Below, piece after piece: positions 42,083-61,093 of a stretch of DNA of 61,093 nt (its first letter is position 1; each line of letters begins with the position of its first letter). The DNA comes from a virus, in the IMG/VR virus record IMGVR_UViG_3300044716_000219, positions 1 through 61,093 of that record; one strand, given 5' to 3'. Position numbers and translations under genes: made by a program. The notes under the pieces were generated by a model that searched no databases, was not told the origin of the DNA, and saw only the letters and a list, made by a program, of their open reading frames with translations.

Positions 42083-45000
42083 TTAGTCAATCTGCTCTGC
42101 AATCTTAGTCTCACGCTTGCGCTGCTCTTGTGGTGCGCGCAACAAACTCGACAGTGGCTGAGGTTTTAAGTCATTACGCCTACGGGCTTCTTGCAGATTC
42201 TTCCACGATTCGCGTGCTTTGGCCATACCCTCGCTGTCTTGTTCGCGATATGCCTTGGCAAACTGATTTTTAATTTTAGTCGAACGCTCAGTAAAGTTCT
42301 TTTCCAAATCCAAAGCAGATTGGCGAGCTTGATAAGTCTCAGCAACCTTGGCAGATGGCAGACCCATGGCAGCAAACACTTGGCCTACTTGGGAAACATC
42401 ATCCGCACTTAGGATCACATCGCCGTTACGACGTGTCAAGCCTTCACCAGCAATGCGTCCTGCTTTGAGCATGTCGCTGATACCCTTTGGCATTGTCTGC
42501 TCGAGGCCGCGATATATATCTCCATTTGCCATAAGGCCAAGGCCGTCTACCATACGAGCGGTCATACCACCGGCTGCACCGCCAGCAATAGTACCGATAG
42601 CTTGAGCAACTCCAGCTTGGGTAGTCAAGTCAAGATCAGCAAATGGTGCAATTGAAAGCATGTTGCCAGCACCAATCTTGCCGGACAAATCTACACCGAT
42701 CAGTGTTGGCGTGCCGCGCATCACAAGCTGCGACCACTCTGGGCCAAGCTCTTTACGCATCCACTCAGTTAAATCAAACGGCTCGTCTTCGTCACCCAAG
42801 AAGAATCCTGCAAGCGCTGCAACGGCGGCGTAGCCGGGTAGACCCATCGCGCCAGCGAAGATTCCGGTGTGAGCAAGGGAGAAGCCCAGTGTACGCAATG
42901 CTGCCTTACGCTCTTTGGGATCGCGAATGTCGTTAAGTAATTTGACGTAGAAACCGATCTGTACCAACTGAAACTTGCGGAACTGCAAAGCAATCTTACC
43001 GAAATTGCTGTTGAAGATTCTCGGTGCATTCATCGACGTGTAGTCGCCGTGCGTATCTTGCAGAATGCCGGCAGCGTATTCGATGGCGGCTTGTTTGTTG
43101 CCTTTCGTTCTAGCCAGCTCAAGACGGTAGGCAGCCATGGCGGTAGACAAACGGTTAATCGCTTCAGTCTTTTGGATGGCAAGGCGCATAGCCTTATTGA
43201 CACGCTGTGCCGACTGGCTGAGCTTGCTATCTGCTTCGACCTTATATTCGTTGATCTCGGTTGCCAAACCAATGTCAATACTTCCACGCTTGACCAAAGT
43301 GTCAATCGCTTCACGCACGTCATCAGGCACTTGGGTAAAGTCAAACTGTTGACCGAACAGCTTAGTGTTTTTAAACAACGGGCCAAGTTCAGAGTACGCC
43401 GTCCACAATGCAGTGCCGACTTTGTTGTAGTCGTGACGACCTGCCATAGCAGGTACAGACATCATGAATGGCTGTGTCAAGTTCTGAATGTAATAGCCGG
43501 GGCTCGTTGCCAAGAAATACTTGGATGACAAGTTCGTCAGCTTTTCCACCCATGGGGTGACGTTGTAGTTTAGAGACTCAACGTAGCGTGTGCTTAGTTC
43601 GTCAAACAGTTCTGTCCGGCGAGTCACATCCCCCTTCTTGGACTCTTTGCGCATAGCTTGCAGAGACTCTTGAATCTCAGGACTAAACTCAATCGAAGCC
43701 AAGAAGTTGGCATCAGCGCGACCTTGTGTTGTGAAGGACTGAAGCATATCTACTTCACCGGAAATACCACGGCGACGCATCTCAGACTTACGGGCGCTGT
43801 CTTCTGCCAAAGTCTCAAGGTACAACTGACTAATCAAATTGTAGACCTTAGCGTTAGCAGTACCTTCGTTGGCGTCTACGGTTGCACGCAGTTTTGTCAA
43901 TGCAGGCAATAAAGCCTCACTGTTGAACTTGTCCATGGCTTCGGCGCGTTTGATAATGCCTGTCGACAAGCCGGGGAACTCTTCGCCAATTTTTGCTTCT
44001 AAGTTGCGGGCTTCCCACTTGGAGTCAACAAAGGACACTTGGTAGTGCTCTGGGTCTTTTTCCAGTTCTTTGATTCGCTTAGTATCTTTGGCGTTCACAG
44101 CAGCAACATATTCGTCAGATCGACTGACAACTGCCCAAGGGCCAGTACGCTTAATTGGCGCATAGGGTAAACCCTCGCGAATCTTGAACAGAGTTTTAAA
44201 GCGCTCTAGTGTGTTGGCTTTCTCGGTCTTCAGTTCGGTTTCCGTCTTTGTGTCACCAGCTTGTTTAGCAATTGCGATAAGCGCGTCGTACTCGGAGGTA
44301 GCAGAATTTAGAACAGTCTGCTTTTTCTCTGACAGCATAGTATTACCGTGCTGAAACACCGCTTTGACAAACGCCTGAGCTTTAGGCTTTAAAGCGTTAA
44401 ACATGGCAGCCATTGCAGGATCGGCTTTCAACGAGCCGCTGTCATAACCCCACTTGGCTTGGCGTGTAGATTCAAGCAAGAAATCATTAACAGTACCGGG
44501 GCCTCGGCCTTTGTGTTCGTCTTCGATCGTGGCATACATATCAGCGATCTTCTCGATGCGGCGCTCACGCTCGCTAGCAGCGGCTGTTCTGTTGGCTAAA
44601 GCTTTGGCAAAACGTTCAGCAGGAAGGCCCGCTTTGGTGGCACGAGCAACCAGATCACTGGTGAATACCACGTAGTCCAAACCTCGGCCCATGATGTCAC
44701 CAAGACCACCAACAATGTTAGTAGCCGGCTGTCTTAGCTGCTGGGGTAGCTTGTTAATGTTGCGATTGATTGCACCTTGATTTGGCGCGTTCTTCCCAAA
44801 CTGCATACGTTGACGGTCAGCCGCCGCTTGAGAGCCGACGCGGAAAATATTCTGGTCGTTAAACACAACGATGTTGCGGGTTGGGTTGCCTAACCGAATG
44901 ACTTTTCGTTTAAGGCGTTCGACATCTTGGCGAACTTGTTCTGCTTGAAACTCCGCAGCTGTCCTAGCATCTACCGCATTCAACCACGTCTTGCGAGCGT

Positions 45001-48000
45001 ATTCTTTCTGCTCTGGAGGAGCTTTATCTTGCAAAGACTCCCACTTATCGGCTTCTTTGGTAGCTTTCTCAACCGCAAGTTCTTTTTCCCGCAGAACTTC
45101 TTGCAGTTGCTGTAGTTTGATTTGCGTTTGGAATTGATTGCCGCGACTGTTTTGATCTAAGAACTTAAGAGCTGGAATGCCGAGCTTTTCATCCAAGTAC
45201 TTGGACACGATTTCCTTAAAGCCGGTGTTAGCCAATCGCTTGTTGTAGTCCTCAACGTCAAACTCTTCACTGACAGCACCAGTTCGCACTTCAACAAAAC
45301 CAAGCCCGCGATAAAACTCATCGCCGGTCATGTCAGCGAGATCAGCACCAACTTGGTCTTCAACGTCTTCGCGCAAAATATCTGATATGGACGCTTCAAT
45401 TTTTGCCAAGATGGCTGGTTGTTTAGACAACGGCTCATCCCAGTTAAGAACATCTTCATCAGCAATGGGAATGTCTACACGCATGAGGCTGCCTTTAGGG
45501 GCAACTGTAGTTTCTGGGGTAACAGAAAACTTTGCGGGATCAAGCGACTTTATGGCAGCAAGGTCTTCACTTGAAGTTTCAATGGTGCTTGTAAGGACAT
45601 CGACATAACCCTGCTCTGGGCCAGAGGGCTTTGAGCTTGACCGTTTTTCAGCTAAAGTTCTTTTTGCAGACTCTAAAACAGTCTTCTTCTTTGCAATATA
45701 ACGTTCTAGGTCGGCGCTTGCTTCTTTAATAGCTTCAGCAGCGGTTAGCCCACGCTCGAACATTAACTTGTACACTGGAACAGTTGCAGCGTTTTGTTCA
45801 GGGCTAGCACGTCCTATTGCGACGCCGTCGTAAAGGGCTTTTGCTTTAGTAGTTACTGTTTTGCGTTCCACGTCAGCTGACCAGTAGCCCTTGGCAATTC
45901 CAACACTTTGTGCAAAGTAAGAACCCCAGCCATAAGCCTGAGCGCCTTCGCCAGTGCCCATAAAGTCATGGTTAAATCTACGGAAAGCTGCTGCAGTTCC
46001 GTGCCACGTGCCATTAATTTCCAAACGAGCCGCACCAAACGCCAAGTTAACAACGTCTTGAGCGGTTAAAGATTCTGGTTTGAAACCGAGCTTACGAGCG
46101 GCAATCTTGAACGCAGCCCACAACGTACGGAACCAGTCCATTAGAGGGCCTGACTCTTTGGAAACTGCTGTAGGATCAATGCCAGCATCGATGGCTTCTT
46201 CGAGGAAGTAAGCTAAGAGTTCGTTGTTTTGCTGAGTTTCAGCTGTGCCAGCGCTTTCAAAACGTTTCGTTGCGCGTTGCGCTAATACAGATTCAATAGA
46301 ACCATCTTTCTTCTTAGCCCAGCTTTGTAACTGCTCGATTAATTTGTTGTAGGTTTGTTTTGTAAGTAGATTTTCCAAACCAAGGTGAGCCCCAACCTCG
46401 TGCATGAACTTGGCACGTCCAGAACCCCGATTAATTCGATCTGCGATCAAATACGCACGGCCATCTGTGGCAACGCCGTAGGCATTCTCTTTTTGAATTG
46501 CCTCACCAACCGCTCTAACTTTTGAATCGGGGTCGTTGAGTAGATCGTCTATGGTGTTAACCACCATGAGTTTGCGACCGGGTATGTCGGCACGGATGAA
46601 ATCTTTTAACTCTGCCAGCAGTTGTTTTGCCGTGTATGGTTTCTTGGCTTTGCCGTCTTTACCAAACAGCATGTTCTCTTCTTTGGCAACCACAGTGCGA
46701 TCAGCAGCAGCCTGTGTTGTAGCTGACTTGACAGGCGTAGAAACTGTCTTCGTCACTGGCTGTACACCCTCACGCACGAGGCGGTCATCAGGGACATTTC
46801 CGGTGATAAAGTCATTGACTGTATTCTGTGCATCAGGAACCACGAACAACTTAGAGCCATCCATGTTGTCGCCGTACTTGGTAATCAAGTCACGGTAAGT
46901 TTCTTTGTCAACGTTGATACAGCCAAATGAGTAACGAGAATCGCCAGCGGCTTCGCTTTTTAAAGCAGCAGCACGTTGGGGAGCGTCTTTTTCTTTTAGC
47001 CAGACAGAATGCATAAATGTCACAACTGCGTCCGGGTCTTCCAAAGCAAACACTTTGCCGAAGTCGTAGTCACCTGCAGTTACTGCTGCGCTACCGCCTT
47101 TAGCTGCATCAATTATTTTGATGCCGAACAAACCGGCTGGAGTCACGCGGTTTTGTGGCAGGTCGTTGTTACCGATATACAAGTCACCTTTAGCCAGACC
47201 AAACAAAGACTTCTTTTGCAGAACAAAAGAACCGTCGGCTTTAAAAACAAAGATACGACCGCTTGGTTTATCGGCAATCGTAATAAACTTGTTACCAATT
47301 TTGTCTTTCAAAGCAGGAACTAAACGGGCATAAGCCTGTTTGCCAGCGTCAGACATCATGGCAGCTTCGGCAGGAACCTCGGCCAACACTTGTTGCGTGG
47401 TTACTTTTGTCTCTTGTGGAATCACCATAAATGATTCAATTTGAGAGATTGCTCCGGGGTTAAAAATCATGGCCACCGAAAGCACACCTGCATGCAACGT
47501 TTTAATAATGTCGCGAATAGCACCTGCCACCGCTTCTGCACCCTTGGTAGCGTACAGAACAACATCTTCTTTAACCTTGGCTAAGAACTCAGCGCTATCT
47601 CGTTTAAGGTTGTAGTGTTTTTCAAGCCGGTTAACTTGCGGTGCAGGCAAAGCAGCAACACGCGGGCCAACGGTTTCCTCAATCACGCGAGCTTCAACAT
47701 CAATAGTCACTGGCTCTTTGGTCAGCAACTGCTGCAAGCCCATCTCTTTAGCAACTACGGGTTTACCATTGGTACGAACAGCCAAATCGGTCAGGTATTC
47801 CTGCTCAAGCTTAGTCAACTGCTCGTATGGAACCAAACCGGGTGTCTTATCAGAAAGGCTCTCCCACAGGGCTCTGCCTCTATCTACTTGGCCTTTGGCT
47901 TGGCCTTGGGTTTGACCTTTGCCGGCAGGCTTTTCGGTACGCCGTACTTGGCCGCCCACTCCTTGGCCAGCTTGGGTTTCTGGCTGAACAGGTACGACTG

Positions 48001-50866
48001 CTGCGCCTTGGACTTGAACGGCATTTGTTTTCTCCAGTTTAGCCATCTTGACAGACAGCTCTTTAGTTTGACCGCTTTGGAAATCAACGGTCACGATGGT
48101 TGCATCTCCGTCGCCGGAGAATCCTTTGACCACGCCGGTACCCAACTTAGGGTTTACTACGGTGTCGCCAACTTCAAGACCCTTACGGTCAGCAGCACGT
48201 TTAGCAGCGGCTTCGGCACGAAGTTTTTCAGCTTCAGCTGCTTTTGCGGCATCTTTTTCTTCGGCGGCTTTTTGAGCAGCTTCAGTTTTCTTTTCAGCTT
48301 TAGTTTGTTTGCGTTCAGCTTTAGGAGCAGTAATACTTTCTGTCAGCGCAGTGTAGTCAGCTGTTAAAGCGTTAATGCGTTCGGTAGCAGCAGCCTCGGC
48401 TTGAGCCAATCCAAGTTGTTTTAGTTCGGCGGCAGCGGCTTGCAATTCAGCAATTTTGTCTGCAATGTTTACCAACTTCACGGCCATCTGGCTTCCGGCG
48501 GTACTGGCTTTCTGCCATTCGCGAGAATCATCTAAGCTGGCAAACATTTCACCGGCTTCACCTTCAAGACCTAAGTTCTTCAAAGCAGACGTCAAATCAC
48601 CAGACTCAATGTTTCCTTTGACCTGATCGATTTTTTCACTGAGCTCCGACATCTTGGCAATGTCAGCTTTAGAGGGCGACGCTTTAGCTTCCAGTTTGGC
48701 AAGATCACTTTCCAATTTGCCGAGTTCTGTCGAGGCGGCTTTCTGTGCGGAGTCAATGCCCAAATGAGTAAACACTTGGTTGCGATCAAAGCCCATGTCC
48801 TCTGCAATATCTGCAAGGATTTCTGGGTTACCGATCTGACGAACGCGAGACGCATCAATACCAAAGGTGTCAGCAACTTCCTTAGCGACGTTACCTTTGT
48901 AGCCTTCAGGTACAGATTTACGGGCAAGAATATACGCCTGCAAGATTTTGCGGTCGCGCTCTTTATTCTTTGACTTGGCGAGGTGCTGGTCAATGACAGC
49001 TTCCATTTCGTTATTGCCAAAGTCGAGTTGATCTGCGCGACCGCCTTCTTGGTCTTGGCGCATGGCTTCAATCTCGGCAGCGTTGCCTGTGGCACGAGCA
49101 ATCTCTAACGCATCATCTGAAGTGTCGACCAGATTAGTAGTACCGGGTGCACTGCGAGTAGTTTGGCCTTGGTCTACAACGGTAGATGGTTGGCCACTGG
49201 TGCTTGGAAGAACTCCAGCTTGTTGAGGTGGGGCTCCAGCTGCGGTGGTATCTCCACCCACTGTTCCTTGGACAGCAACATCTGATCCTGCAGCTCCCAC
49301 AGTTCCCGGAACGACAGCGCCCCCGACTCCCAAGCCTCCTGCAGGCTGTTGTACAGTAGAAATTCCTGTGCCACTTGATGCCTCCTTGCGTGCTTGAATA
49401 ATAGCAGCATCGAGAAGTTGTTGCACTTTCTCCAAACGCTTAGGAGTCATTGGCTTTGGGTCTGAGGCGTAATTCCACACGTCCTGAAATACAGGGCTAG
49501 ACAACTCAAGGTTGTTTTCCTTAGCGAGTTTCTGTATCTCATCAAAAAACTGCAAAGACGAGGGCGTAGCGATAACACCGAATGTGTCGCGCAACTCGGT
49601 TCTGGGAGTAACTGTCAAGGGAGCTGGAGCGCTACCCAACAAATTTGCTCCGCTAAGAGGGTTGCCCATCAACGAAGACGCCGCTGTACCTGTAAGACTT
49701 TCGCCCAACGGTTGAGTCAGATCAGTTTCTTCACTAATTAAAGTTGGTGTTGTTAGTTTAGGGCCGCCTAAAGGATTAGCCATTAACGCAGCAGGATCAG
49801 TACCCGTGAGGCTTGCTCCAAGAGGTGCTTTTGTTTCAAGACCAACTTGTGGCTGCTCTGGAGCCAGCAAATTTAATTCTTGCTGAGGGGCTTGATACTG
49901 TTCACTACGACGCCAGCCGCCAGCTGCACCACCAATAGTGCCGCCAAGAAGCGCACCGCCAATAGCTGATTCTTTATAGCGAGCAAGCGCAGCATCAGAC
50001 AAGAACTGCTCGTTAGGGTCAACGGCCATACGGCCAAGCTGACTAGTCATTTCCTGAAGGGTCTCAGTGCCACCTTCTACCAAACCGGTAGTTAAGCCTG
50101 TGGCTGCTGTGCGAGCCACACCGCCTCTAAATCCAGAAAGGTCATCAAGCGCTCTAACACCCGATCGGAAACCCTGCTGCCTAGCCAACGCGCCTTCTAG
50201 ACCGAGAGCGTTCAGAGCTGAGTAGGGGACACCAAGAGCTGCTGCAGCACCTAAATTTGTTTGACCGTCAGCCTGTTCTCGTTGGGCTTGCAGAATATCG
50301 CCGACTGCGGATGGGTAGCCAGCAGTGACACCGCCAAGAGTCTGGCCTGTACGGAGCGCTCTAGTAGCCTGTGCGGCAGCGTTTACATCTCCGGCAGTTT
50401 GTGCAGCGCCGAGGGCTGCACGAGTACCAGTCATCAAACCACGAGCAACTAAACCACCACCAAGGGCCTCAGCCATGTATGGGGCGGAGCCAATAGCCAA
50501 ACCGCCAATGTAGCTTGGCAGATCAGAAACACCTCGAACATCTTCAAAGCTTTCAATGGCACCTTGTGCGCGAGCTCGTTCGGAGGCTACGTTAGCTTCA
50601 AACTCATTGGCCTCACGACCACGACGGAAGAAGTCTGCGCCTGTAACCGCTTCACCCAAACCATACAAACCTGCTTGATATCGGTCAAGAGCTGCACCAG
50701 TGCGAAGTCCAGAGATTCCAGACTGTGTAGGCTTGTAACCATATTCCGAAGCAATCCTACCGGGGGATACACCCGCCGCAGTAGAAGCTAATTGCAGAAG
50801 CTGCTCATCGCTTTTATCGTTAGCAAACGCCCCGAGGGCGGATCGCAGGTCTGCAATAGACGGCAT
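42083..50866 (-). CDS. 2927-aa polyvalent ejection/virion protein with L,D-transpeptidase, zincin and ART-like domains
   Basis: An N-terminal hydrophobic, Gly/Ala-rich region lies at about residues 60-320. Low-complexity linkers, a coiled coil (about 700-890) and a tudor/KOW-like domain (GDTVVNPKLGTGVV, about 898-942) follow. An L,D-transpeptidase (YkuD) domain has His1286 and the catalytic SFGCINV Cys1316. A zincin-like HEVGAH (His1489-His1494) comes next, with a downstream ELLAYFLEE. A polyvalent-type ADP-ribosyltransferase-like region begins WHG (His1622) with YGWGSYFA near 1647, and has a NIVVFND end near 2005. The C-terminus has an FGKIALQFRKF segment (about 2620) of the PLxRFG type. Likely packaged and injected to cut peptidoglycan and modify host targets. 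Confidence 0.9.
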   Translation of the reverse strand: MPSIADLRSALGAFANDKSDEQLLQLASTAAGVSPGRIASEYGYKPTQSGISGLRTGAALDRYQAGLYGLGEAVTGADFFRRGREANEFEANVASERARAQGAIESFEDVRGVSDLPSYIGGLAIGSAPYMAEALGGGLVARGLMTGTRAALGAAQTAGDVNAAAQATRALRTGQTLGGVTAGYPSAVGDILQAQREQADGQTNLGAAAALGVPYSALNALGLEGALARQQGFRSGVRALDDLSGFRGGVARTAATGLTTGLVEGGTETLQEMTSQLGRMAVDPNEQFLSDAALARYKESAIGGALLGGTIGGAAGGWRRSEQYQAPQQELNLLAPEQPQVGLETKAPLGASLTGTDPAALMANPLGGPKLTTPTLISEETDLTQPLGESLTGTAASSLMGNPLSGANLLGSAPAPLTVTPRTELRDTFGVIATPSSLQFFDEIQKLAKENNLELSSPVFQDVWNYASDPKPMTPKRLEKVQQLLDAAIIQARKEASSGTGISTVQQPAGGLGVGGAVVPGTVGAAGSDVAVQGTVGGDTTAAGAPPQQAGVLPSTSGQPSTVVDQGQTTRSAPGTTNLVDTSDDALEIARATGNAAEIEAMRQDQEGGRADQLDFGNNEMEAVIDQHLAKSKNKERDRKILQAYILARKSVPEGYKGNVAKEVADTFGIDASRVRQIGNPEILADIAEDMGFDRNQVFTHLGIDSAQKAASTELGKLESDLAKLEAKASPSKADIAKMSELSEKIDQVKGNIESGDLTSALKNLGLEGEAGEMFASLDDSREWQKASTAGSQMAVKLVNIADKIAELQAAAAELKQLGLAQAEAAATERINALTADYTALTESITAPKAERKQTKAEKKTEAAQKAAEEKDAAKAAEAEKLRAEAAAKRAADRKGLEVGDTVVNPKLGTGVVKGFSGDGDATIVTVDFQSGQTKELSVKMAKLEKTNAVQVQGAAVVPVQPETQAGQGVGGQVRRTEKPAGKGQTQGQAKGQVDRGRALWESLSDKTPGLVPYEQLTKLEQEYLTDLAVRTNGKPVVAKEMGLQQLLTKEPVTIDVEARVIEETVGPRVAALPAPQVNRLEKHYNLKRDSAEFLAKVKEDVVLYATKGAEAVAGAIRDIIKTLHAGVLSVAMIFNPGAISQIESFMVIPQETKVTTQQVLAEVPAEAAMMSDAGKQAYARLVPALKDKIGNKFITIADKPSGRIFVFKADGSFVLQKKSLFGLAKGDLYIGNNDLPQNRVTPAGLFGIKIIDAAKGGSAAVTAGDYDFGKVFALEDPDAVVTFMHSVWLKEKDAPQRAAALKSEAAGDSRYSFGCINVDKETYRDLITKYGDNMDGSKLFVVPDAQNTVNDFITGNVPDDRLVREGVQPVTKTVSTPVKSATTQAAADRTVVAKEENMLFGKDGKAKKPYTAKQLLAELKDFIRADIPGRKLMVVNTIDDLLNDPDSKVRAVGEAIQKENAYGVATDGRAYLIADRINRGSGRAKFMHEVGAHLGLENLLTKQTYNKLIEQLQSWAKKKDGSIESVLAQRATKRFESAGTAETQQNNELLAYFLEEAIDAGIDPTAVSKESGPLMDWFRTLWAAFKIAARKLGFKPESLTAQDVVNLAFGAARLEINGTWHGTAAAFRRFNHDFMGTGEGAQAYGWGSYFAQSVGIAKGYWSADVERKTVTTKAKALYDGVAIGRASPEQNAATVPVYKLMFERGLTAAEAIKEASADLERYIAKKKTVLESAKRTLAEKRSSSKPSGPEQGYVDVLTSTIETSSEDLAAIKSLDPAKFSVTPETTVAPKGSLMRVDIPIADEDVLNWDEPLSKQPAILAKIEASISDILREDVEDQVGADLADMTGDEFYRGLGFVEVRTGAVSEEFDVEDYNKRLANTGFKEIVSKYLDEKLGIPALKFLDQNSRGNQFQTQIKLQQLQEVLREKELAVEKATKEADKWESLQDKAPPEQKEYARKTWLNAVDARTAAEFQAEQVRQDVERLKRKVIRLGNPTRNIVVFNDQNIFRVGSQAAADRQRMQFGKNAPNQGAINRNINKLPQQLRQPATNIVGGLGDIMGRGLDYVVFTSDLVARATKAGLPAERFAKALANRTAAASERERRIEKIADMYATIEDEHKGRGPGTVNDFLLESTRQAKWGYDSGSLKADPAMAAMFNALKPKAQAFVKAVFQHGNTMLSEKKQTVLNSATSEYDALIAIAKQAGDTKTETELKTEKANTLERFKTLFKIREGLPYAPIKRTGPWAVVSRSDEYVAAVNAKDTKRIKELEKDPEHYQVSFVDSKWEARNLEAKIGEEFPGLSTGIIKRAEAMDKFNSEALLPALTKLRATVDANEGTANAKVYNLISQLYLETLAEDSARKSEMRRRGISGEVDMLQSFTTQGRADANFLASIEFSPEIQESLQAMRKESKKGDVTRRTELFDELSTRYVESLNYNVTPWVEKLTNLSSKYFLATSPGYYIQNLTQPFMMSVPAMAGRHDYNKVGTALWTAYSELGPLFKNTKLFGQQFDFTQVPDDVREAIDTLVKRGSIDIGLATEINEYKVEADSKLSQSAQRVNKAMRLAIQKTEAINRLSTAMAAYRLELARTKGNKQAAIEYAAGILQDTHGDYTSMNAPRIFNSNFGKIALQFRKFQLVQIGFYVKLLNDIRDPKERKAALRTLGFSLAHTGIFAGAMGLPGYAAVAALAGFFLGDEDEPFDLTEWMRKELGPEWSQLVMRGTPTLIGVDLSGKIGAGNMLSIAPFADLDLTTQAGVAQAIGTIAGGAAGGMTARMVDGLGLMANGDIYRGLEQTMPKGISDMLKAGRIAGEGLTRRNGDVILSADDVSQVGQVFAAMGLPSAKVAETYQARQSALDLEKNFTERSTKIKNQFAKAYREQDSEGMAKARESWKNLQEARRRNDLKPQPLSSLLRAPQEQRKRETKIAEQID

Positions 50867-50896: not shown

Positions 50897-52546
50897 TTAC
50901 TTCAAACCAAACCTTTTCGCACGAATTTCCTCGTCGGCGGTTAGAGGTTGTTTGCTGGCTATTTTGGATTCTAAGTAAGCTTTATAGCGAGCCTGACCAG
51001 CATCAAGCCCCTGACCCACAGCAGCCACCAAGTTAGGAGCGGTTGGAGGTGTTTCACGAGCAACTCCTGTGACAGAACTAACATTTGTCTTTGGACGATT
51101 TGGGTCAAGTCCAAGATTAGTAGATGTCTTTGCCGGAGCCGACGCTGCAGCTGGAGCAGAAGCATTTGGTTTTTCGTTGGCCAGAATTTGTTTAGCCAAC
51201 GCCGCAGGATCAAGGCTTGCGTTAGCGCCGCCAGTGCCTAAATACTGATTAAAGATTTGGTCTGTAATAGCTTGTCTAGCTGACTGAAAAGTATGCTGGG
51301 GGCCTTTTTTGTTGGTCGGGTCTACGGGAGTACCCACCAATTGTTCAGCAGCCTTAGCGATTTTCTCAGGGTCAAGCGCGCCAATAGGAACCACATTTCG
51401 CTCTAAAGGAATTTGCACACTCTCAAGGTCACCGCTTTGTCTGTTAAAACGCAAAGCACTCATCACCTGAATAGGATTGCCTTTCTCGTCTCGAGAATAT
51501 CCCACCTGCACACCAGACAATTGGTTTGCAGCGCTTCCGCCCTCTTGGGAGGCTTTTTTTGCCATTGCGTTGTAGTAACCAACTTGGGCCTTTTTTGTGT
51601 CTTCGTCCAAGCGAAACTTAGCCAACTCAAACGCGCCGCCTTCTCTGATTCGAGAATCAACACTAAGAGCAAATTCATCAGCAGACTTCGCTTCGAGGAA
51701 AGGAACACGCGTGCCGTCCTTGTTAACTTGCGTTACTTTAAAGCCGTCAATTTCAAGTGTGAAACTATCGTTTAACTCGTCAATAGCTTTAAGCGCAGCG
51801 GCTGGGCCTTTTAGCCTAGCCTGCCTAATAGTCTGGTCAAACTTAGTACCATCAATCAAAAGTTTGTTGCGCTCATTAGTGCTGTAGTTTGCTTGCAGCG
51901 CAGCAGCAGCTTCAGGGCCTCTGAATTGGGCCACAGCAGCCAAAACGGCAGCATCTTTATCTTCTGGCTTATCGTATTTAGTGTCGTTAATCTTTGCAAA
52001 TGCTGCGTCAAAATTAGTAGTTTTTTCCTGTGCTGTTCGCGCTTGGCCAACTTGGATACCTCCCAATTCAACTTGCTGGCGCAAAGCTTGCGCTTGTAAA
52101 GGAGCCATCTCATCTTCGCGTTCTGCCCTGACAATGTCTCTTCGCATCTGGAGACCAGCTGTTGGATTCCGCTCGGCGACTACGTCAGCAATCGCGTACT
52201 GTCTAGCGCGCTCAATTTCTGCCTGATTAGGCATCTGATTAAAAGTCTGCTGGCCTACTTGGTAGCGGCTCAAACCAATCCGCTGACCCTCCACCGGCAT
52301 TTGAGGGGCGTAATTTACTTGTTCTTGGGGAGTTAGGCCAAACACCTCGGCGTCTTGGACTGCCATTGCTTGTGCTTCTGCACGAGCGCGGCCAATTTCT
52401 TCTGGTGTAGCTTGTCGCTGTTGAACTTCTTGAGGGGTCAGTGCTTTCGCTGCACGAATCCCTTCTTGCTCTTTAACTCGGTCGTAAACGTCTAGTGCTT
52501 GTCTAGCTACCTGCGAACCTGCCTGAAAACCTGATGCCCATCCCAT
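50897..52546 (-). CDS. Internal virion/ejection-type protein
   Basis: 549 aa from the ATG at 52546 (GGAGG upstream); the frame is open further up but that part overlaps the next gene. It starts MGWASGFQAGSQVARQALDVYDRVKEQ, then long Ala/Gln-rich helices with repeated Q-x-G-V-Q-V-G patterns, and a C-terminus with Pro/Ala-rich linkers ending QPLTADEEIRAKRFGLK. No enzyme motif. Placed upstream of the giant protein gene and downstream of the S74 virion protein gene, it is probably an ejection-complex component. Confidence 0.8.
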   Translation of the reverse strand: MGWASGFQAGSQVARQALDVYDRVKEQEGIRAAKALTPQEVQQRQATPEEIGRARAEAQAMAVQDAEVFGLTPQEQVNYAPQMPVEGQRIGLSRYQVGQQTFNQMPNQAEIERARQYAIADVVAERNPTAGLQMRRDIVRAEREDEMAPLQAQALRQQVELGGIQVGQARTAQEKTTNFDAAFAKINDTKYDKPEDKDAAVLAAVAQFRGPEAAAALQANYSTNERNKLLIDGTKFDQTIRQARLKGPAAALKAIDELNDSFTLEIDGFKVTQVNKDGTRVPFLEAKSADEFALSVDSRIREGGAFELAKFRLDEDTKKAQVGYYNAMAKKASQEGGSAANQLSGVQVGYSRDEKGNPIQVMSALRFNRQSGDLESVQIPLERNVVPIGALDPEKIAKAAEQLVGTPVDPTNKKGPQHTFQSARQAITDQIFNQYLGTGGANASLDPAALAKQILANEKPNASAPAAASAPAKTSTNLGLDPNRPKTNVSSVTGVARETPPTAPNLVAAVGQGLDAGQARYKAYLESKIASKQPLTADEEIRAKRFGLK

Positions 52547-52547
52547 A

Positions 52548-53573
52548 TCAAACCTCCAACATCTCAATGCCGAGACCGGCGTAATTAACTGCTTTGTAGC
52601 CGTCAGGCATTGTGAACACCATTTCAGGGTAACGTTTTTCAACGTCGTCGGCCATCACGCCCAAGAAGCGTTGGCCGGTACCGCCAATATATTCAAACTC
52701 ATAGAGTGGCAACATGGTACGCTTATCGTGGCCAACCACTTCAATATTTTCTTTGAGGCGGCGATCAGACTTGGCAAGACCGGCTGCGCCCAATGTGGCA
52801 CCAGCGCCGAGGATAGAACCCCACATTTCGCCTTGAGCGTTAAGACCTGTGTTGTACGCACTTGTTTGAGAGCCGAGAATTTGACCTTGACCTGTAATAC
52901 CCATCTGAGCGCCGCCCATCATATAACCAGCGCCTTGGCCAAATGCAGAGCTGTACTGATTACCCGGAGCCATGGCAGAACTAAGTCCAGTAGAACCTGA
53001 AGTGTTAGCGCCGCCATAAGCACCAAGAGAAGCACCTGCAAGACCACGACCCAAGCCAGTGACATCTAAACTACGAGCGAAACCTGTTTGTTCGGCTTGG
53101 CGACGAGCGTTAGTAGCTGCACCGGCAGTCATACCTGCAAGACCAAGGGCGTTCTGGTTTCTCATCATCAAAGCAGCGCCAGACGAGGCGTTAATACCGC
53201 GACGAGCCATCTCTCGATTGCTTACACCTTGAGCAGACTGGAATGCATTAGCTGCATCGGCTGCGGCTTGAGCGGCAAGTTGTTGTCTATTGCCTTCGGT
53301 GTTGTAGGCTTGGGCCTGTGCGACTAGACCTTGTTCCAACGGTCGGAACGTTTGCCTCTGGTAGTCGTAGTAATCGCGCCCCTGTCGCATCAGTTCTTCT
53401 TGAGCAGCCATTTGCTGGGCAGCAACTCGTTCAGCCAGAGGTTTCATTTCCTCATACTGACGTTGTGCAAAGTCCATTTGACGATTGCCTAGACGCTCTG
53501 CAGTAGCAATACCACGTTCCGTGGCAGCGGCCATCGCCGAATAGTCTGGTGGTGCTGCTGATTTTCCGCCCAT
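52548..53573 (-). CDS. Virion protein with C-terminal S74-like domain
   Basis: 341 aa from the ATG at 53573 (AAGGAG upstream). It starts MGGKSAAPPDYSAMAAATERG, a start shared by internal virion proteins of freshwater podovirus-like phages. A helical Gln/Arg region (to about 120) and a Gly/Ala/Ser-rich region (about 150-260) follow. The last 70 residues (SDRRLKENIEVVG...YIGGTGQRFLGVMADDVEKRYP) form a short peptidase-S74-type chaperone, unusual outside tail fibres. The gene ends 2 nt before the 549-aa gene. Confidence 0.82.
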   Translation of the reverse strand: MGGKSAAPPDYSAMAAATERGIATAERLGNRQMDFAQRQYEEMKPLAERVAAQQMAAQEELMRQGRDYYDYQRQTFRPLEQGLVAQAQAYNTEGNRQQLAAQAAADAANAFQSAQGVSNREMARRGINASSGAALMMRNQNALGLAGMTAGAATNARRQAEQTGFARSLDVTGLGRGLAGASLGAYGGANTSGSTGLSSAMAPGNQYSSAFGQGAGYMMGGAQMGITGQGQILGSQTSAYNTGLNAQGEMWGSILGAGATLGAAGLAKSDRRLKENIEVVGHDKRTMLPLYEFEYIGGTGQRFLGVMADDVEKRYPEMVFTMPDGYKAVNYAGLGIEMLEV

Positions 53574-53575
53574 AT

Positions 53576-53992
53576 TTACTCCTTGCGCAGCCAACGACAG
53601 GTGTCAGGCCGCATTACCAAAATCTGCATATCAGCGCCGGGAGCGCCGTCTTTCATTACAAACTCTTCTTCAAACCCAAGATGCTTATCGAATTCTATGA
53701 TATGTGGTTCATTTGTGGGCACCATACCAGTGAGTCTTTTTAACTGGCAGTGGTTAAATGCATAGTTGCACACATGCTCGAAGAGGGGAATGATTTGCTT
53801 CGTCTGCCGTGCGATGGCTATATGACATGTAGCGTTTGATCCATTGTAGTTGTTTATGACTACTCCGGCTAGAACCTCGTCACCCTGCATGACACCGAGT
53901 GCGTAGAAACTTCCCCAGTCTGCGTTCTGACCGACACGCTCAGCAACCCAAGCGCCAATACGATCTTTCTGGTCAAAGACAAGTTCTGCCAT
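53576..53992 (-). CDS. GNAT-like acetyltransferase-fold protein
   Basis: 138 aa. It has the strand order of GNAT enzymes: YALGVMQGDEVLAGVVINNY, TCHIAIARQTKQIIPLFEHVCNYAFNHCQLKRLTGMVPTNEPHIIEFDKHLGFEEEFVMKDG. A typical Q/R-x-x-G-x-A acetyl-CoA loop is not clear, so activity is uncertain. Such proteins occur in the tail region of many phages and may modify a virion or host protein. It ends 2 nt before the S74 virion protein start. Confidence 0.8.
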   Translation of the reverse strand: MAELVFDQKDRIGAWVAERVGQNADWGSFYALGVMQGDEVLAGVVINNYNGSNATCHIAIARQTKQIIPLFEHVCNYAFNHCQLKRLTGMVPTNEPHIIEFDKHLGFEEEFVMKDGAPGADMQILVMRPDTCRWLRKE

Positions 53993-59545: not shown

Positions 59546-60160
59546 TTAACCACCCAAAACAGCTAGGGCCTGATTGATGTGTTTGATGCGATCGTCAAGT
59601 CCGATTGTGCCGCCGTTGATGCGTTTCGTCATGGTCACAAAGTCGCGGCCATCAGCGTGCTGATTAATCTTGTGTGTCTGCCAGAACCAACCTGCTGTTT
59701 GAGCGGCGTACTTGGGAGTGCGCACGAGTTCAGGCTCCATCACGAAGTCCACACCGAGGGCTTTGCCTGCGTGGTAGAAGTTGCTATGACCGGTCAGCTG
59801 GAGAAATCCGGAGCCGCGGAACCGCCAGCCATCCCCAGAAGCCTCGTCACGGTTTCCCATACGATTGCCGTAAATGCGATTGGCGATACGTTTAGGCTGT
59901 TTCTCGTAGGCCGCAGCTTCCTCGGGTGTAAAGCCCCATGCACGTTTAGGCGTACGGGGGAACAGCTTCAAAAGCGTAGCAGCTCTGTAGTTCAGGTTCT
60001 CTTCCATGATCTTGAAGTTGCCGCACTCGTGCCCGCACTGACCAATCCAGCTTGCTTGCTGCAAAGGCGTGAGGATGCCAAACCGCTCGAAGGTTTCGTT
60101 GAACGCATCGGCCAATGTGGGGTCGATGTGCATTTGTTTGAGTTGGTCACTTGTTACCAT
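59546..60160 (-). CDS. Endolysin, GH19 chitinase-like lysozyme
   Basis: 204 aa. The GH19 lysozyme pattern is clear: GHECG at residues 43-47 with catalytic Glu45, then NRIYGNRMGNRDEASGDG with a second acidic residue (Glu106) and FRGSGFLQLTGHSNF. It has no signal peptide, so it needs a holin to reach the peptidoglycan. It cuts the glycan backbone between N-acetylmuramic acid and N-acetylglucosamine. It follows the spanins, overlapping Rz by 14 nt. Confidence 0.95.
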   Translation of the reverse strand: MVTSDQLKQMHIDPTLADAFNETFERFGILTPLQQASWIGQCGHECGNFKIMEENLNYRAATLLKLFPRTPKRAWGFTPEEAAAYEKQPKRIANRIYGNRMGNRDEASGDGWRFRGSGFLQLTGHSNFYHAGKALGVDFVMEPELVRTPKYAAQTAGWFWQTHKINQHADGRDFVTMTKRINGGTIGLDDRIKHINQALAVLGG

Positions 60161-60658: not shown

Positions 60659-61093
60659 TCAGGTCTCCTTACGAGCGGCTGCAATCTCTGCACGGTCATC
60701 ATCAGGCTCCATGTGCTCTGGAGGCGTTGTAGGTGGAGGCCCGGGAGTCCACGACTCATCAAGGTCTGGGTTCTTGTAGCCCATCCAGTTGAAGTTAGGC
60801 ATGATCGATGAAGCCGCTGGGGCGGTAGAAACCACCGTTGCCTGCACAGGTATTGGTGTGCTAGGGGTTGTCGTCGTAGCCGTCGTTGTAGGAGGATGAG
60901 GAGCCATGGCTTGAGCCGCAGCGCCCACAGCGCGTTTACTCATCACACCGCCAATACCACCTACTATCAATAACACAATGTCGTTCAGCATCTTCGTGTA
61001 CGCCTGATCGATGGGGGCCATCGACTTGATTGGCTGGGTGACGAACGTCACCGAATACAGAAGCGCCACGACAATGAAGCACAGGATGCAGGT
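60659..61093 (-). CDS. Holin-like two-TM lysis protein, 3' part reaching the right edge
   Basis: Continuation of the gene at 1-223; the frame enters from beyond 61093 in the circular genome. This copy covers the end of TM1, TM2 (DIVLLIVGGIGGVM), the Thr/Pro-rich region and the acidic tail. The stop at 60659 is 2 nt before the Rz start. Confidence 0.8.
   Translation of the reverse strand, partial: TCILCFIVVALLYSVTFVTQPIKSMAPIDQAYTKMLNDIVLLIVGGIGGVMSKRAVGAAAQAMAPHPPTTTATTTTPSTPIPVQATVVSTAPAASSIMPNFNWMGYKNPDLDESWTPGPPPTTPPEHMEPDDDRAEIAAARKET
60967..61093. repeat. Terminal direct repeat, right copy (circular overlap)
   Basis: Identical to 1-127; see the left copy. Removing one copy gives a 60,966-bp circle. 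Confidence 0.95.

Follow-up and report, generated by a model that had tools for sequence, protein, structure and literature searches.

A giant polyvalent protein of an uncultured short-tailed phage contains a predicted YkuD L,D-transpeptidase domain on an exchangeable cassette

Phage polyvalent proteins are giant multi-domain chains encoded in late operons, in which zincin metallopeptidases (including an HEXXXH subset), ADP-ribosyltransferases (ART) of the HYD2 type and polyvalent-associated C-terminal domains are found, and these proteins are believed to be carried in the virion and injected (Iyer et al., 2017; PMC5512222). The peptidoglycan modules described for them comprise a lysozyme, a SpoIID-like transglycosylase, a DD-peptidase and a zeta-toxin-like kinase, whereas the words 'transpeptidase' and 'YkuD' occur nowhere in the main text of that paper (PMC5512222). 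Moreover, no paper on polyvalent proteins with a transpeptidase, or on YkuD transpeptidases in phage virions, was found among the open-licence literature. The giant protein analysed here shares the domain and operon features of the class and also carries a predicted YkuD L,D-transpeptidase; the class itself is already known, and the L,D-transpeptidase module appears to be a new addition to it.

The window, that is, the whole stretch of 61,093 nucleotides that was analysed (IMG/VR virus record IMGVR_UViG_3300044716_000219), comes from an apparently complete but uncultured, short-tailed phage. Its two ends overlap exactly over 127 bases (positions 1-127 and 60967-61093), which fits a closed circular assembly. 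The coordinates and the length of 2927 residues given for the giant in the original prediction are correct, and the gene lies on the minus strand (Table 1), behind same-strand genes for the terminase, portal, major head protein, tail fibres and an internal virion protein, together with a GH19 endolysin-like gene; an endolysin-like gene separate from the giant is located at 59546-60160. Directly upstream of the giant, a gene without a PHROG or Pfam match (50897-52642) encodes a 581-residue protein ending in ...RAKRFGLK, which resembles the FG junction word discussed below, possibly by chance. Besides, an acyl-CoA N-acyltransferase-like gene lies between the tail-fibre genes (53576-53992; phrog_4470, E 2.7e-25), and an N-acyltransferase is also found close to the giant of Rhizobium phage RHph_TM29. 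A PADLOC search returned no match.

Table 1. Features of the giant gene, with positions in the window.
Feature	Residues	Position	Strand	Remarks
Giant polyvalent protein	2927 aa	42083..50866	-	Final gene of minus-strand late (structural) operon
N-terminal domain	1-330	49877..50866	-	Shared by numerous sister giants, both YkuD-bearing and YkuD-less
Possible sigma-70 region 4-like helix-turn-helix	636-678	48833..48961	-	Pfam E 0.11 in window
UvrD/PcrA C-terminal tudor-like domain	879-945	48032..48232	-	TIGR01075 E 3.3e-5
YkuD cassette	1029-1398	46673..47782	-	Present or cleanly absent in relatives
Basic-then-hydrophobic helix directly before YkuD, signal-anchor-like	about 1113-1138	47453..47530	-	Conserved in 45 relatives
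Predicted YkuD L,D-transpeptidase catalytic domain	about 1190-1350	46817..47299	-	Conservation, Pfam, fold, tblastn
Catalytic His codon	1286	47009..47011	-	Invariant in aligned relatives
Catalytic Cys codon	1316	46919..46921	-	Invariant in aligned relatives
Junction motif 1, MLFGKD, between YkuD and zincin	1399-1404	46655..46672	-	Motif counts; low pLDDT
Zincin-like metallopeptidase domain	1405-1615	46022..46654	-	Conserved motif and Glu; other zincins fill the slot in relatives
HExxxH active-site motif, HEVGAH	1489-1494	46385..46402	-	Invariant in 30 relatives
ART-PolyVal (HYD2-type) ADP-ribosyltransferase domain	1616-2015	44822..46021	-	Pfam, H-Y-D triad, model
Junction motif 2, MQFGKN, between ART and C-terminal module	2021-2026	44789..44806	-	Motif counts; low pLDDT
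C-terminal PLxRFG / 'DarB-like' module	2027-2927	42086..44788	-	NF032893, phrog_10089

The YkuD domain had been proposed with His1286 and Cys1316, and both are found at these positions, within the H...S-x-GC-x-N context of YkuD L,D-transpeptidases, C1316 being the sole cysteine of the whole giant. Across 45 aligned rows, H1286, S1287, D1309-S1310-R1311, S1313, G1315, C1316 and N1318 are invariant, while the pattern S-x-GC-[IV]-[NR] arose in none of 2000 shuffles of the giant. The Pfam YkuD match of the window sequence alone is weak and below the cut-off (E 0.092), and 18 of 21 relatives match the same profile (best E 1.3e-5); in addition, annotated bacterial L,D-transpeptidases were matched by tblastn at E 3e-8. 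Structure prediction of the region, which had been suggested as a check, gave an AlphaFold model of residues 1029-1399 with a core pLDDT above 90, and its top 43 Foldseek matches in the PDB were all L,D-transpeptidases (best E 3e-5), with TM-scores of just 0.15-0.41, a low range that partly reflects the disordered termini and the helical portion included in the query. Matches of the YkuD profile to NHL/TRIM71 were judged to be chance, reflecting a short 'DKPSGRVFVFKADG' stretch that resembles beta-propeller repeats. The helix that precedes the domain is present in all aligned rows and is only moderately hydrophobic. Taken together, sequence and model indicate that the giant contains a YkuD L,D-transpeptidase domain in which the catalytic residues are kept and whose activity is predicted.

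Bacterial YkuD L,D-transpeptidases (Variovorax QRF63153.1 and similar) share with this domain the His ... [DN]xR-x-S-x-GCIN[VI] motif and the fold, but they are small, stand-alone enzymes (that of Sphingomonas begins with a signal-like stretch), whereas the domain described here is embedded in a giant and has loops of its own. The rarity originally ascribed to L,D-transpeptidase folds in phage virions agrees with our searches, in which no phage among 50,697 records held a recognisable relative of the YkuD cassette. In tblastn searches of the whole giant against cultured phages, the C-terminal part was matched in 32 of 33 records and YkuD in none, and Sulfitobacter phage phiGT1 matched the ART but not the C-terminal part. 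Relatives of the cassette, down to about 45% identity, are carried by several dozen distinct IMG/VR contigs, and a scan of genome contigs with narrow DNA patterns for the cassette yielded no match. Elsewhere in phages, YkuD is on record in a few lytic proteins (10 in PhaLP), in a gut endolysin and, as a stand-alone domain, in phage XacN1 and its relatives; small free-standing genes resembling L,D-transpeptidases were observed in Xanthomonas phage XacN1 (L138:2447-2794) and in Stenotrophomonas phage DLP5 (L139:3004-3354), the latter annotated as hypothetical. The YkuD cassette also has fold matches within giants of uncultured phages in UniProt, namely A0A6J5S7V6 (LPD protein) and A0A8S5MBC9 ('L,D-TPase catalytic domain-containing protein'), which carry automatic annotation and for which no description was found in the papers searched.

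A second, separate case of a giant combining predicted YkuD and LPD38 domains was identified by sequence in the E. coli phage-like plasmid pSTEC648_2 (CP061838.1). This 2318-residue protein has YkuD above the Pfam cut-off and LPD38 in one chain, and it is locally similar to the window's giant across YkuD and the preceding helix (E 3e-14), although the remainder is barely alignable and a small tree separates its YkuD from the window family. The 60.5-kb 'plasmid' that encodes it at L135:8722-15678 also carries a holin and a lysozyme and looks like a phage-plasmid. No DNA match to this giant was obtained in 5,426 complete E. coli genomes.

Behind the YkuD cassette, the original prediction had placed a zincin with an HExxH motif; that motif is absent, the actual one being HEVGAH (HExxxH, at 1489), and a zincin-like domain is supported, HExGxH and the downstream E1549 and E1556 being invariant in 30 rows. 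The HExxxH pattern arises in 0.35% of 2000 shuffles of the giant. In the predicted model, HEVGAH lies in a helix (1483-1500) after short strands and E1549/E1556 lie in another (1543-1560), which agrees with the description of polyvalent metallopeptidases, where a helix with HEXXH, or HEXXXH in a named subset, is combined with a glutamate on another helix that follows a beta sheet (PMC5512222). Pfam MPTase-PolyVal gave a single weak match within the family (E 0.038), and a fold search with the zincin-ART model yielded no significant PDB match and was uninformative, with coiled coils dominating. One sister giant, in alignment A5, matched a Pfam lethal-factor-type metallopeptidase (E 1e-4), in accordance with published work that connects polyvalent zincins with this fold. 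The polyvalent-type ART-like region was likewise recovered: ART-PolyVal matches 19 of the 30 relatives (best E 1.9e-30), and the conserved H1622, Y1650 and D1904 correspond to the H-Y-D triad published for ART-PolyVal / Tox-ART-HYD2. Ahead of the last strand, a long coiled coil is inserted in the window and in some relatives. The giant is thus predicted to carry an HExxxH zincin and a HYD2-type ART, both of which keep their catalytic residues.

Among the remaining modules, the N-terminal domain is 41-65% identical in the sister giants L010, L008, L101, L097 and L102. A sigma-4-like helix-turn-helix is only suggested, by Sigma70_r4_2 matches in some sister giants (best E 5e-5 and 1.4e-4). The tudor-like domain that had been predicted proved to be of the UvrD/PcrA type, and the PcrA_UvrD_tudor match is significant in sister giants. 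At the C-terminus, residues 2269-2923 match NCBIfam NF032893 'PLxRFG domain-containing protein' (E 8.1e-97) and the module also matches phrog_10089 (E 4.6e-62), so that the anticipated PLxRFG-type family was found, while the literal PLxRFG motif is absent from the sequence. This module is shared with the family labelled 'DarB-like antirestriction' in PHROG, whose phages include Klebsiella phages LASTA and SopranoGao, Serratia phage Parlo and Rhizobium phage RHph_TM29, the giant of the last being syntenic with the one described here. LPD38, LPD39 and LPD23 domains were found in sister giants; Pfam matches to CPL, CBM_35 and HTH_63 were set aside as weak. We place the giant among the phage polyvalent proteins on the basis of its domain architecture, with several unrelated enzymatic domains in one polypeptide (YkuD, zincin and ART) and linked polyvalent-associated domains, its position among late/virion genes on one strand, and its C-terminal family.

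Comparison of sister giants revealed how these modules are distributed. The YkuD cassette is present in L010, L001 and L006 and absent in L103, L101, L097 and L098. L103 matches residues 37-1028 and from 1399 onward, with YkuD missing and about 20 residues between, while L010 matches 1-1397 (64%) and 2030-2921 (62%) with another zincin (HEIGH) between. Similarly, L010, L001, L008 and L025 are without the HExxxH-ART and have an HExxH zincin in the same place. By sequence, YkuD is an exchangeable cassette with defined borders, missing in relatives that keep both flanks, which is new here. A further new observation is that a peptidase motif comes after YkuD in every non-redundant YkuD giant checked except L075, which ends after YkuD, even though the type varies (HEIGH, HELGH, HEVAH, HESIH, HELFH, HEILH, HELVH, HEAMH, HELTH, HEALGH). 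The giants were gathered with YkuD or zincin queries, which biases the frequencies but not the presence/absence pairs. A Pfam scan of 17 YkuD-less giants detected no other wall enzyme. As part of the explanation favoured below, the YkuD and zincin(-ART) cassettes have probably been swapped independently between related phages, making the giant a carrier of swappable effectors.

The zincin-ART module is bracketed by MLFGKD and MQFGKN, both in linkers of the window's giant. The pattern [MIVL][KRQL]FG[KTSEVNI] was seen 44 times against 5.2 expected from shuffles in 30 non-redundant HExxxH giants, a count made after the motif had been spotted by inspection and inflated by the shared ancestry of the carriers, and 3 times against 6.2 expected in 37 other giants. 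Most sites lie either some 90 residues ahead of HExxxH or 415-600 behind it, and further copies surround extra modules. At comparable places, two giants with another zincin type have VKASLR twice and IKFSLR (L044) or IRYSLR and LRLSLR (L092). This [MIVL][KRQL]FG junction motif, which marks module junctions only in HExxxH-zincin giants, is a candidate self-processing cleavage site. Only slightly less than an even chance is given to the motif being a trace left by recombination or a site of internal translation initiation rather than a protease site, as it sits at cassette exchange points and frequently starts with ATG. However, Shine-Dalgarno sequences are not enriched and Val, Ile, Leu or Ala can stand in place of the methionine, on which grounds a start at the motif ATG was rejected; the synonymous positions vary (TTT/TTC, GGT/GGC/GGG), which indicates that conservation acts at the protein level, and giants with other zincins show no enrichment though they exchange cassettes too. 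A more far-reaching idea, which we regard as distinctly doubtful, is that the giant is a true polyprotein in which the resident zincin would cut at a specific linker code ([KQRL]FG for the HExxxH type, different words for other zincins), phages would swap protease-effector cassettes with the matching code, and the wall-modifying L,D-transpeptidase would act first.

Packaging of the giant in the virion and its injection are most likely, by analogy with giants such as JC1 gp69, detected by mass spectrometry in purified virions (PMC9144972), and P1 DarB, located in the phage head (PMC9024508), which are non-homologous or distant and represent the nearest experimental support. The JC1 giant is a relative of BcepIL02 gp70, which fails to match the window's C-terminal profile, and the BcepIL02 giant was accordingly not retained as a homologue of that C-terminus. 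The domain set of the original prediction is real and the polyvalent placement holds, while the virion location and injection it proposed are probable by such analogies. Wall passage first and host modification later is a reasonable order. One long chain, made late, would be packaged in the head via the terminal modules and ejected together with the DNA; YkuD, led by the hydrophobic helix, could then reach the periplasm and alter the peptide stems of peptidoglycan at the entry point (by carboxypeptidase action, amino-acid exchange or cross-link rearrangement), which may ease DNA passage or limit the damage it causes. The zincin would cut the chain in its disordered linkers, with the recurring [KQRL]FG as the probable site, freeing the modules, and the released ART may modify host proteins in the cytoplasm. 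This account as a whole, of a late-made, packaged and ejected polyvalent protein with a wall-acting YkuD, a self-cutting zincin and a host-modifying ART, is the one we consider fairly probable.

Other roles for the YkuD domain were weighed against it. The T6SS effector Tlde1 trims tetrapeptides or exchanges D-amino acids, blocking cross-linking, and YkuD might in the same way be an antibacterial or superinfection weapon acting in the periplasm on the host or a competitor. The Tlde1a structure is among the L,D-transpeptidase fold matches (rank 43, weak, E 0.16), and intact catalytic residues in an optional cassette are expected of an accessory effector, but by sequence the domain is closest to ordinary bacterial L,D-transpeptidases and not to Tlde1, and we consider this role unlikely. 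L,D-transpeptidases are also known to anchor proteins such as Lpp to the wall, and the cassette is the best conserved stretch of the YkuD-bearing giants; still, it seems improbable that YkuD acts other than by peptidoglycan trimming, either by linking a portion of the ejected protein covalently to the wall or as a structural relic, and the invariant catalytic residues speak against a relic. Equally improbable is that the giant, as the product of a late-operon gene, acts in assembly or lysis inside the producing cell and is not injected, given that its C-terminal family and domain mix fit polyvalent proteins, that virions of P1 and JC1 contain giant DarB-like proteins (PMC9024508; PMC9144972), and that the phage already encodes an endolysin-like protein elsewhere.

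Overall, an L,D-transpeptidase appears to join the peptidoglycan enzymes of injected phage proteins. Its presence or absence in close relatives shows that such giants are assembled from cassettes with defined borders. Besides, the junction motif provides named sites at which self-processing by polyvalent zincins, a proposal of long standing, can be tested directly.
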